This document shows, one piece after another, positions 7,078 through 27,995 of a stretch of DNA of 27,995 nt. The position numbers and the translations under genes are program-made. Positions within the stretch are counted from its first letter, which is position 1, and every line of letters starts with the position of its first letter. The stretch comes from a virus, in the IMG/VR virus record IMGVR_UViG_3300046660_000252, positions 1 to 27,995 of that record. One strand, given 5' to 3'. The notes under the pieces are model-generated. The model searched no databases. It had not been told where the DNA came from and worked only from the letters and a program-made list of their open reading frames with translations.

Positions 7078-7172
7078 GTGACCAAGATCAGCGGTTGATG
7101 TGTTTCGGTTTCGGAGTTGTTTGTGGCATAGCCCTTATCCAGTTTTTTTGGCTGATGGCAGGTGCCGCATGA
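7074..7172 (+). CDS. Micro-ORF encoding a single-span membrane peptide
   Basis: A 32-residue ORF filling the space between the phosphoesterase and the antiterminator. Its ATG overlaps the upstream stop as ATGA, its stop overlaps the next ATG the same way, and GGAGG (7062-7066) is well placed. The product has a short polar start (MSDQDQR), then a continuous hydrophobic segment (FGFGVVCGIALIQFFWLMAG). Four-base overlaps at both ends with an intact frame are strong support for translation. It may mainly couple translation of the antiterminator, or act as a small membrane protein. Confidence 0.6.
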   Translation: MSDQDQRLMCFGFGVVCGIALIQFFWLMAGAA

Positions 7173-7528
7173 GAGACGCCGAAGATCTTCTGACCCACTG
7201 GGGCCGTTGGAGTCGTCAGCAGGTTGGTGTGCCGCGCTGCACATCCCCTTCCTACGTCCTGATGCGCGATAACGTGGAGCAGTTCGACAGCTTCCCTACT
7301 GCGGACATCACGGATGAAGAGGCCATGATGGTTGATCACTTCGTCGCGCGCATGGCCCGCAAGCATGCCAAGATGGCCGAGTGCGTAAGGGTGTACTATC
7401 GCGGTCTGGACAAAACCATGGCCGATGTAGGCAAGGAAGTAGGCGAATCCCGGCTCAAGGTGCGCGAGTACATCATCGCCGGGCACGCGTACATTGAGGC
7501 TTGTCTTGAGATGAGGGTGGCGGCATGA
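7169..7528 (+). CDS. Q: Q-type late antitermination protein
   Basis: A 119-residue protein starting MRDAEDLLTHWGRWSR. The pattern 'LL..WGRWSR....g.p.y.SP.y.lmrdnv' followed by ITDEEAMMVDHFVARM and YYRGLDKTMADVGKEVGESRLKVREYIIAGHAYIE matches the phage Q antiterminator group (phage_antitermQ type). The C-terminal half resembles a sigma-region-4-like HTH. I start at ATG 7169 (ATGA overlap with the micro-ORF) rather than an upstream GTG. It is the last recognisable regulator of the early operon. A promoter-leader-terminator unit begins about 0.5 kb downstream, exactly where a Q protein would act on RNA polymerase to read through into the late genes. Confidence 0.85.
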   Translation: MRDAEDLLTHWGRWSRQQVGVPRCTSPSYVLMRDNVEQFDSFPTADITDEEAMMVDHFVARMARKHAKMAECVRVYYRGLDKTMADVGKEVGESRLKVREYIIAGHAYIEACLEMRVAA

Positions 7529-7719
7529 GAAAGACGGTTCCTGGCTGGCTGCTCCTAACGTCTTGCGCTTGCACGCTTGCCACAGTAGCGGCGTCGATGT
7601 GTTTTAGCGGAAAAACTTTCACTGATCTGCCAATCTTTCTATGCGCATTACTCTCGAATGTATGGGTGTTATGGGTTCTTTGGGGGTATCGACCGTGGCG
7701 AAAAGGTCAATCCTCTTGA
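7525..7719 (+). CDS. Small two-span membrane protein
   Basis: A 64-residue protein coupled to Q by ATGA. Residues about 7-27 (GWLLLTSCACTLATVAASMCF) and 35-55 (LPIFLCALLSNVWVLWVLWGY) are hydrophobic spans, separated by a short polar loop and followed by a basic tail (RPWRKGQSS). The basic tail suggests a cytoplasmic C-terminus. No family recognised. Candidates include a small lysis-timing protein or superinfection-exclusion protein; neither is supported beyond topology and position. Confidence 0.6.
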   Translation: MRKTVPGWLLLTSCACTLATVAASMCFSGKTFTDLPIFLCALLSNVWVLWVLWGYRPWRKGQSS

Positions 7720-7816
7720 CGTGTTAACCGAGAACTGGCATATTGCCCAAAGATGCGGTTTTACCGCTTCGAACGGACACAACCAGCGCCAAGGGCCCGC
7801 ACATGCGGCTGTCTTT

Positions 7817-7937
7817 ATCGAAGATCTGCCTGTGACTGAGAGGCCTAAGGTTGAAGTTTGGGATAGACATTTCTGCTGCCACCAAACGGCAATAGCAGGC
7901 GTGCCGAGAGTTCGAATCCTTCAGGCAGATCTTCGAT
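7817..7937 (+). ncRNA. Class-II tRNA-like structured element closed by a 16-bp inverted repeat
   Basis: The 458-nt stretch 7720-8177 has no convincing gene. Within it, ATCGAAGATCTGCCTG (7817-7832) and its exact reverse complement (7922-7937) enclose 89 nt. Just inside are a D-arm-like segment, ACT-GAGAGGCCTAA-GGT (7835-7851), and a T-arm-like segment, GAGAG-TTCGAAT-CCTTC (7906-7922, one mismatch), as in serine/leucine tRNAs. Between them CGGCA/TGCCG (7887-7891/7902-7906) could be a long variable arm. No normal 7-nt anticodon loop forms; the best anticodon-like stem, GAAGT/ATTTC (7853-7857/7869-7873), leaves 11 nt. No CCA follows. It is either a decayed tRNA, a tRNA mimic or an unrelated structured RNA. 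The helix is seen directly; the tRNA likeness is my interpretation. Confidence 0.45.
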
Positions 7938-7990
7938 GCAGATGAATGCGCAGGCTGATGCGCGCAGAAACGAGTAAAGTTCGGAACGTC

Positions 7991-8030
7991 GTTAAAATTA
8001 CTGGCCGTTAAATCGGTATGATGAGGGACT
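7991..8030 (+). promoter_or_regulatory. Candidate late promoter (pR'-like)
   Basis: TATGAT at 8017-8022 matches a -10 box in five of six bases. The best upstream hexamer, TTAAAA at 7992-7997, is only a fair -35 at 19-nt spacing. Location is the main support: downstream of Q, in a gene-free stretch, about 100 nt before a strong intrinsic terminator and the late genes. Q-dependent promoters are often imperfect, with a Q-binding site between or next to the boxes. Confidence 0.35.
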
Positions 8031-8152
8031 GACGTGCCTGACGCCTCCGTCGTGTAGGGGAAACCTGAGGAGGCATCGTATATCCGAATGCCGGAGATCA
8101 GCGCCGGCCATCTGCACCAATTCAAAGCCTCGCCACAGTGCGGGGCTTTTTT
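8029..8152 (+). ncRNA. Predicted short late leader RNA, ending at an intrinsic terminator
   Basis: If the promoter at about 8017 is right, an RNA of about 120 nt would be made without Q and stop at 8152, like the lambda 6S RNA. It can form a GCCTCC/GGAGGC hairpin (8043-8048/8069-8074), a GCCGG/CCGGC hairpin (8090-8094/8104-8108) and the terminator hairpin. The transcript itself is inferred; only the hairpins are visible. Confidence 0.35.
8124..8152 (+). terminator. Strong intrinsic terminator before the late genes
   Basis: Ten-pair stem: AAAGCC-T-CGC (8124-8133) pairs with GCG-G-GGCTTT (8140-8149) with one G-T pair and a 6-nt loop, followed by a run of T to 8152. It lies upstream of every late gene, so late expression would need read-through, consistent with the Q protein at 7169. 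Confidence 0.85.
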
Positions 8153-8177
8153 ATGCCCGCAATCCACGAGGTGGACA

Positions 8178-8423
8178 ATGCTCAAGCAGATCGGTGATTG
8201 GCTGAAGCACGCAGCGCGCTATTCGCATTTCCGTGTCTGCTCCAAGCATGAATGGATCCTCATCAACTTTAATGAGGGTGGCTCGAAGGCAAATTTCTAT
8301 TTCGCCATCTGGCGCAATTCAGAAACCTTCAAATCTGCCTGGATGCTTCGCATATACGTAGGCGGTTACGTTTTCCTGCTACCTGCCCGCCTTGGCCTAA
8401 CCGTCAGCAACCGGTTCAAGTGA
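8178..8423 (+). CDS. Hypothetical protein at the start of the late operon
   Basis: An 81-residue protein. I choose ATG 8178, preceded by GAGGTGG (8168-8174); the longer frame from 8088 would run through the terminator hairpin. It is rich in aromatic residues (HFRVCSKHEWILINFNEGGSKANFYFAIWRNSETFKSAWMLRIYVGGYVFLLPARLG). The alternating hydrophobic pattern suggests a beta-rich fold rather than a membrane helix. It is the first gene after the late terminator. No family recognised. Confidence 0.6.
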   Translation: MLKQIGDWLKHAARYSHFRVCSKHEWILINFNEGGSKANFYFAIWRNSETFKSAWMLRIYVGGYVFLLPARLGLTVSNRFK

Positions 8424-8430
8424 GTAAGCC

Positions 8431-8604
8431 ATGACCATTACCGTCGACGAAAAGCTGATCGAGATTGCTCGTTGCCTCGCAGATTCTGCTGCAACACTGT
8501 CGGGCACGGACATGCGGGTTCTGGCTGCCGAGTTTGCGAGCGCCGCATCGGTTCTGCTTGCTCAAGCCGTAAAGTCATCTGAAACAGTCAAGTTTGTTGG
8601 CTGA
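8431..8604 (+). CDS. Short hypothetical helical protein
   Basis: A 57-residue ORF starting 7 nt after the previous stop. The product MTITVDEKLIEIARCLADSA continues as an Ala-rich helical protein (LAAEFASAASVLLAQAVKSS), with no membrane-length hydrophobic run. The ribosome-binding site (GAGTAAG) is weak. It fits tightly between its neighbour and the 8639 terminator and keeps a normal codon pattern. Function unknown. Confidence 0.5.
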   Translation: MTITVDEKLIEIARCLADSAATLSGTDMRVLAAEFASAASVLLAQAVKSSETVKFVG

Positions 8605-8638
8605 TTTATTCCCCGCACTCCGCTCCCCAGCGGATTTT

Positions 8639-8661
8639 GGCGCCCACCCGGCGCCTTTTTT
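8639..8661 (+). terminator. Intrinsic terminator upstream of the holin gene
   Basis: Six-bp all-GC stem GGCGCC/GGCGCC (8639-8644/8650-8655), 5-nt loop, then six T. A second hairpin, TCCGC/GCGGA (8619-8623/8630-8634), lies just before it. It separates the small leading genes from the holin and would need antitermination. Confidence 0.75.
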
Positions 8662-8692
8662 ATTCCCCAACGCCGAGACCAACGAGGCGCCT

Positions 8693-9097
8693 ATGAGATC
8701 GCAAGCCATGTCAGAACCCGGACCGTTTACCGCTTTGGGTGGCATCGCGCTTTACAAGCTCGGCGCCTTTGGGTTCGTCGCTGTACTGGCAGCCATTGTC
8801 GTTATGGCCATGACGCTGCCCAAGACGGTGCGTGAGTTCGTTGTCGCGATGATCAGTACGACCGTCTCCAGTATCTGTGGCGGCGCGTTCATCGTGCGCT
8901 GGTTCGATCTCGGCGCCTGGGCCAACGACGACATCGGTCTGATTGCCATTGGCGGCATCATCTTCGTCTGCGGCCTGCCTGCATGGGTACTGGTCCGGGC
9001 CTGGTTCAAGTGGGCCGAGAACCGCAAGGACAAGGATCTGGCCCAGCTTGCCACAGACCTGCAAGACCTGAAGAAGACCGTAACCGGCGGACAGTGA
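8693..9097 (+). CDS. Phage holin with three predicted membrane spans
   Basis: A 134-residue protein from ATG 8693 (GAGG at 8684-8687). Hydrophobic spans lie at about 23-43 (LGAFGFVAVLAAIVVMAMTLP), 48-70 (EFVVAMISTTVSSICGGAFIVRW) and 81-103 (IGLIAIGGIIFVCGLPAWVLVRA). A charged cytoplasmic tail follows (KWAENRKDKDLAQLATDLQDLKK). Three spans plus a basic tail is the class I holin layout. A second ATG at codon 6 (8708) would remove an Arg, echoing the lambda S107/S105 antiholin-holin pair. It would open the inner membrane for the GH19 endolysin encoded about 17 kb downstream. Upstream of terminase is a known holin position in some Pseudomonas podophages. Confidence 0.8.
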   Translation: MRSQAMSEPGPFTALGGIALYKLGAFGFVAVLAAIVVMAMTLPKTVREFVVAMISTTVSSICGGAFIVRWFDLGAWANDDIGLIAIGGIIFVCGLPAWVLVRAWFKWAENRKDKDLAQLATDLQDLKKTVTGGQ

Positions 9098-27911: not shown

Positions 27912-27945
27912 TGGTGGAGCCGGGGGGATTTGAACCCCCGTCCGC
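27912..27945 (-). other. Candidate prophage attachment core in ssrA 3' end
   Basis: Phage DNA with no other visible boundary ends next to an intact tmRNA 3' terminus. The ssrA 3' end is a common integration target, with the T-arm/acceptor part used as the core. No second copy is visible here, because the other prophage end lies beyond position 1, so the exact core cannot be set. Confidence 0.45.
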
Positions 27946-27995
27946 CAGTACTCCGCTGTCGGTACTACATGCGTAGCCGTTTCTATTAAGTTAAC
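27912..27995 (-). ncRNA. ssrA: 3' end of tmRNA (ssrA), cut by window edge
   Basis: Read leftward from the window edge, the sequence ends GGACGGGGGTTCAAATCCCC then CCGGCTCCACCA, a T-arm, acceptor strand and encoded CCA. Upstream GTTAAC...GCATGTA...ACCGACAGCGGA...CTGGCGGAC matches the 3' part of Pseudomonas tmRNA as I remember it, with small differences. Only the last 84 nt are present, so the tag-coding region is outside. tmRNA rescues stalled ribosomes together with SmpB. Confidence 0.9.

Follow-up and report, generated by a model that had tools for sequence, protein, structure and literature searches.

The tRNA-like stem of a viral DNA window is the 5' module of a modular phage RNA with a conserved kissing-loop core

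What is the tRNA-like stem that follows a Q-like antiterminator gene in the viral record IMGVR_UViG_3300046660_000252, and does it stand on its own? The window analyzed here is the whole 27,995-nt stretch (positions 1 to 27,995 of that record). A reading of its letters alone (the sequence-only reading) had proposed a perfect 16-bp inverted repeat around 89 nt at 7817-7937, and our repeat search bore this out, with both arms where they had been placed (Table 1). No other 16-mer inverted repeat with arms at most 200 nt apart occurs in the window, the mean in mononucleotide shuffles of the window being 0.02, and the extended repeat has 21-nt arms at 90%. In addition, the folding stability of the hairpin stretch lies 4.5 sd above that of dinucleotide shuffles, and in a 400-nt context the pair probabilities of the closing helix are ~1, with 0.69 for the outermost pair.

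The interior had been described as carrying D-arm-like and T-arm-like sequences close to the class II tRNA consensus. Both pieces are indeed present (~7836-7850 and 7906-7919), but their likeness to the consensus is weak, the T-stem having one A-C mismatch, and tRNA programs reject the element. The minimum-energy fold of the hairpin is not a cloverleaf. Reading of the sequence by eye agreed that there is no normal anticodon loop and no CCA; the anticodon arm, in its best reading, has a loop of 11 nt and the closing helix measures 16 bp, whereas a 7-nt loop and a 7-bp acceptor are expected for a tRNA. ARAGORN, suggested earlier as a check, found no tRNA in the window, also at relaxed cut-offs, and the Rfam tRNA model gave no match to 7600-8200 even at E<=5. 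On these grounds (ARAGORN, Rfam tRNA model, helix length, loop, and CCA), a class II (Ser/Leu type) tRNA gene was rejected. A coding role was also rejected, as PHROG gave no match for the 95-aa ORF that runs across the element (7658-7945).

Our reading of the hairpin changed because a conserved RNA core was found in its flank, outside the coordinates first reported. This core, at 7937-8116, directly adjoins the hairpin and consists of P1, P2, a variable insert, P3, and P1' (Table 1). The window shows each of the defining parts of the core, namely a covarying P1, AAU, a P2 with the loop GGCUGA, a P3 whose loop contains UCAGC, and P1', and it forms row 1 of the 53-row alignment considered below; its P2 loop is complementary to the P3 loop AGAUCAGCG. 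The view of the hairpin as a self-contained unit is thus not borne out: the tRNA-like stem forms the 5' module within a larger, modular phage RNA. Counting the closing helix with its G.U extension, arm B and P1 overlap by 2 nt; the fold predicts both helices together, and since only these 2 nt are common to them, both can coexist.

Table 1. Features of the element and its surroundings in the window
Feature	Position	Strand	Basis or remark
Q-like antiterminator gene	7100..7528	+	phrog_79, E=3e-23
Promoter-like site TTGACG-17-CATATT with TG ahead, probable late promoter	7716..7744	+	0.8 such sites expected by chance
Small hairpin GCGGTTTTACCGC just 3' of the promoter-like site	7755..7767	+	also in PAJU2 and UFJF_PfDIW6
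Arm A (5') of the closing helix (16 bp), upstream module	7817..7832	+	repeat search, pair probabilities
tRNA-like interior, 89 nt, D-arm-like and T-arm-like pieces	7833..7921	+	sequence
Arm B (3') of the same helix, abuts P1	7922..7937	+	repeat search
P1 5' strand TGCAGATG	7937..7944	+	covariation
P2 hairpin GCGCA-GGCUGA-UGCGC, loop 7953-7958 complementary to P3 loop	7948..7963	+	alignment, covariation
Variable insert, 126 nt	7964..8089	+	unrelated in sequence to the L077 insert
P3 hairpin GCCGG-AGAUCAGCG-CCGGC	8090..8108	+	alignment, covariation
P1 3' strand CATCTGCA	8109..8116	+	covariation
Intrinsic-terminator-like hairpin GCCTCGC-CACAGT-GCGGGGC-TTTTTT	8127..8152	+	sequence

A blastn search of 7700-8200 against phage genomes returned short matches only, mainly to the 3' flank and in scattered phages. 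The matched loci have a common arrangement, which runs from a long-armed hairpin through GCAGATG, AATGCGCAGGCTGATGCGC, a variable stretch, and GCCGGAGATCAGCRCCGGC to CATCTGC. The outer pair of P1 reads GAGTG/CACTC in PAJU2 and GATTGGATG/CATCCAATC or GTTGTGATG/CATCACAAC in coliphages, and P1 therefore covaries wholesale. Pattern scans of viral contigs, together with the phage loci, yielded at least 234 distinct cores in Pseudomonas, enterobacterial, and Burkholderia phages, including phage P1 and lambdoid phages. Of 5426 complete E. coli genomes, 844 match the phage P1 copy at least in part, and 216 of them do so over at least 80% of its length. When genome matches with one mismatch were followed up, 12 of the 41 fetched loci passed the full-core test, one of them (L360) looking spurious, and tallies of genomes by the P2 pattern only (20/398 and 47/299) hence overstate the spread; the long core pattern matched genome contigs once. 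A search of the window and representative loci with Rfam 15 (4227 models) gave sub-threshold matches only and no family match, with C4 and theta among the families that returned none. One sub-threshold match, to isrJ, covers 8077-8149 (30.4 bits; cut-off 37) and lies chiefly on the terminator hairpin.

Support for the fold comes from several collections of loci. Among 131 loci picked by P3 alone, 99 have a perfect 7-nt P1 complement ahead of the GGCTGA hairpin, and in 212 loci picked by loop motifs, with no pairing test, 91.8% of the six inner P1 pairs are Watson-Crick. The mispairs in these 212 loci include 40 G.U against 15 A.C, a bias that points to an RNA of this strand. In the 53-row alignment, from which the insert was trimmed (its length ranges from 12 to 180 nt among relatives), 94.6% of cells are paired, a value inflated by the choice of rows partly by pairing, whereas slid controls reach 25-54%. 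The stronger evidence lies in the double-sided changes (16 pairs, 165 cells) and in the checks on unselected loci; the covariation score of the alignment is 0.381, compared with 0.111 after shuffling. Collectively, we regard it as nearly certain that the core is a structured RNA fold.

Given that the pairing between the P2 and P3 loops is near-invariant in the alignment, mutated P2 loops were sought without any condition on P3. The loop GGCCGA was accompanied by UCGGC in P3 (L317/L322, L321, and L324), and GGUUGA by UCAAC (L337 and L349); the mutated loops of L316, L352, L353, and L354 are uncompensated in P3. The P2-P3 loop-loop pairing has compensatory changes. A second recurrent hairpin type, GCCGG-A(G)ACGTAA-CCGGC, which is like P3 with another loop, occurs near elements (L128, L131, L011, and others).

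These data bear on whether the conserved unit acts at the DNA level, as a hairpin for recombination, packaging, or transposition. The shuffling of modules about conserved segments is what a recombination hot spot would give, but the excess of G.U over A.C in P1 and a loop-loop compensation typical of an RNA tertiary contact speak for RNA, as does the strand of the element, which is that of the neighboring downstream genes and tRNAs in the window and in annotated examples. We consider a DNA-level element very improbable.

The position just upstream of P1 is occupied by hairpins elsewhere too. Those with a 3' arm that terminates at the 5' strand of P1 or within it were found in 69 of 221 loci, as opposed to 7 in shuffled sequences (38 and 0, respectively, at a strict cut). 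In relatives, the arms in this slot are wholly different in sequence yet paired, which supports the earlier suggestion that the closing helix is under selection as a structure. T-arm motifs lie upstream of P1 in 20 of 221 loci (0.7 expected, ~30-fold) and in the inserts of 12 of 222 (0.1 expected). Some modules are derived from tRNAs. That of the relative L321 is clearly so: it matches the Rfam tRNA model at 51.2 bits, its anticodon arm is enlarged, and its acceptor stem is extended by flanking pairs. This favors the sequence-only view of a structured, tRNA-derived-looking RNA that is not simply a decayed tRNA. An origin from tRNA genes that decayed inside a tRNA cluster and left the inverted repeat behind would fit the several loci that adjoin tRNA genes and the several tRNA-like modules; against it, most modules are not tRNA-like and still have unrelated arms that pair at the same place, and the core covaries strongly, so we give this explanation hardly any weight. 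In L131, L016, L068, and L209, tRNA-like pieces are located within the P2-P3 insert and not upstream.

The modules also move independently of each other. Only one other record found, L077, has the window's module; its arms are the same and one interior base differs, while the flanks and the insert are unrelated. Across the family, 23 of 27 upstream clusters (built on the 136 nt 5' of P1, not on hairpins only) are paired with more than one insert cluster, and 30 of 33 insert clusters with more than one upstream cluster. Phages exchange modules around the conserved core. Two further stretches recur near the elements, one resembling CAACCAGCGCC...CTGCCCGAT 5' of the module in Pseudomonas loci (L004, L011, L316, L317, and the window at ~7780), and the other an additional long stem, CTTAATATCCAGC...GCTGGATATTAAG, right after the core in the enterobacterial phages of L130 (~1625-1720) and L133.

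The element had been placed between Q and the late promoter, which is inexact, as the only promoter-like site in 7500-8700 is 5' of it. The order in the window is Q-like gene, promoter-like site, GCGGTTTTACCGC hairpin, module, core, and terminator-like hairpin, the last having been missed by a first scan and found by a second terminator scan of our own. A similar TTGAC/GTGTTAAC stretch is seen in UFJF_PfDIW6 and PAJU2. In UFJF_PfDIW6, the similar promoter region and GCGGTTTTACCGC are followed immediately by a terminator, i.e., an empty site. A relative lacking the element had been named as grounds for dismissing it; such a relative does exist, but it shows an accessory module rather than an artefact. 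At the end of the window lies the 3' part of a tmRNA gene (27912-27995, minus strand; Rfam, 65.8 bits), consistent with a prophage attachment site.

Other settings are more diverse. In lambdoid phages the core lies between nutL and the start of N, and phage P1 has four copies in tandem between tRNA-Thr and tciA, two of them complete and two partial (L128, 1600-2260). The proposed tie to the Q switch gained no support; the same RNA is also present in N leaders and tRNA clusters. Downstream neighbors vary among N genes, late genes, and tRNA clusters, with no gene common to all, which favors a role in trans or in stability.

Nevertheless, competing helices and terminators favor a role in cis, as an RNA antiterminator like HK022 put, an attenuator of the following terminator, or a control of N translation; the switch would lie between A-B and B-C pairing. 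In 22 of the 38 strongest cases, the upstream helix takes up 4 or more nt of the P1 5' strand, which puts arm A in competition with the P1 3' strand for one segment; a terminator follows the core within 140 nt in 54 of 227 loci, compared with 1 in controls; and the placement between nutL and N in lambdoid phages speaks for this role as well. However, a cis-acting leader lacks a common target, most loci have no nearby terminator, no terminator separates the core from N in N leaders, and the two helices of the window, with their small overlap, need not exclude each other. We therefore hold this alternative to be unlikely, albeit the foremost of the rivals.

Processing or stability would assign the long helices to RNase III, which would free the RNA from leaders or tRNA clusters while the core guards its end and the contents of the modules are irrelevant. 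Long stems (14-23 bp) are common. L136 resembles lambda in nutL, outer stem, and N; within the stem that surrounds the N leader of lambda, an established RNase III site in that phage, the core takes the place of the inner sequence. Position and outer stem sequence are the same, whereas lambda's stem encloses an unrelated sequence with no core. Such a role leaves unexplained both the near-invariant kissing core and the enrichment of T-arms in modules, and we judge it rather less likely again than a cis-acting leader.

Comparison with known systems identified partial likenesses. Antitermination by the put RNA of HK022 involves two adjacent hairpins early in operons; compared by description, our RNA is similar as a probable phage leader RNA with hairpins in a compatible position, but neither an outer P1 helix nor a variable insert or modules of tRNA-like type are known from put. 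The 6S RNA of lambda pR'-tR' and the late-leader sRNAs of prophages are short late-promoter transcripts that run to a Q-sensitive terminator. The window has what appear to be the matching signals, a promoter-like site upstream and a terminator-like hairpin downstream, although those RNAs are not known to contain a conserved kissing core. GOLLD is often near tRNAs in prophages, a neighborhood that several loci of our RNA share. The pairing topology of the core, P1-P2-insert-P3-P1' with kissing loops, differs from that of the HDV fold, a nested double pseudoknot, and the core gave no Rfam match to theta ribozymes. The latter are structured phage RNAs beside tRNAs (PMC10879173). The ornate RNAs GOLLD and ROOL, large structured noncoding RNAs of bacteria and phages, resemble ours as structured phage RNAs with kissing contacts (PMC12286853); the phage core differs in having no Rfam match, in its size (~60 nt plus modules), and in its hosts.

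On the basis of the sequence signals, the element is probably a leader RNA. Each RNA polymerase leaving the putative late promoter would make the RNA, which would end at the predicted terminator as a ~400-nt leader unless Q gives read-through. The closing helix of the hypervariable hairpin stacks on P1 or competes with it. Action in trans, which we infer from the hypervariability and the lack of a common cis target, is possible but somewhat doubtful. The least certain step is that the RNA, once released, would work in trans, providing a stable scaffold or a decoy that would bind, for instance, a host or defence factor acting on tRNA or dsRNA, the hypervariable modules offering a fast-changing contact surface. 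A phage pseudo-ToxI RNA that evades ToxIN by mimicry (PMC3475682) is a precedent for a phage RNA decoy in trans; no toxin gene and no repeat of the ToxI type came to notice in the present analysis. The hypervariability of the insert may also reflect neutral drift, and module matches outside the elements were mostly other family copies or unmasked flanks, with no antisense target standing out among the matches listed; neither a partner nor a target of the RNA was found. That the window encodes a late-promoter leader RNA with a modular core, acting mainly in trans, we see as an evenly balanced proposition. The most far-reaching reading, to which we assign a probability of roughly 35%, is a new class of phage RNA, shared by many temperate phages, in which a fixed kissing-loop scaffold carries swappable hypervariable modules, some of them taken from tRNAs, and serves as an evolving decoy or sponge that counters, in trans, factors of the host or of competitors. 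It is the structure, not the function, that has good support.

A text search of the open-access literature, including exact core strings, found no study of this RNA. We read the result as a widespread phage RNA for which no named family was found, and any categorical newness belongs to the class and not to the tRNA-like hairpin alone. This widespread structured RNA, which has no Rfam match in the tested loci, is represented in two of the best-studied settings, phage P1 and a lambda-type N leader. For an RNA, it is unusual to combine a fixed scaffold with shuffled modules; this one can be taken directly to phage P1 and laboratory E. coli for testing.
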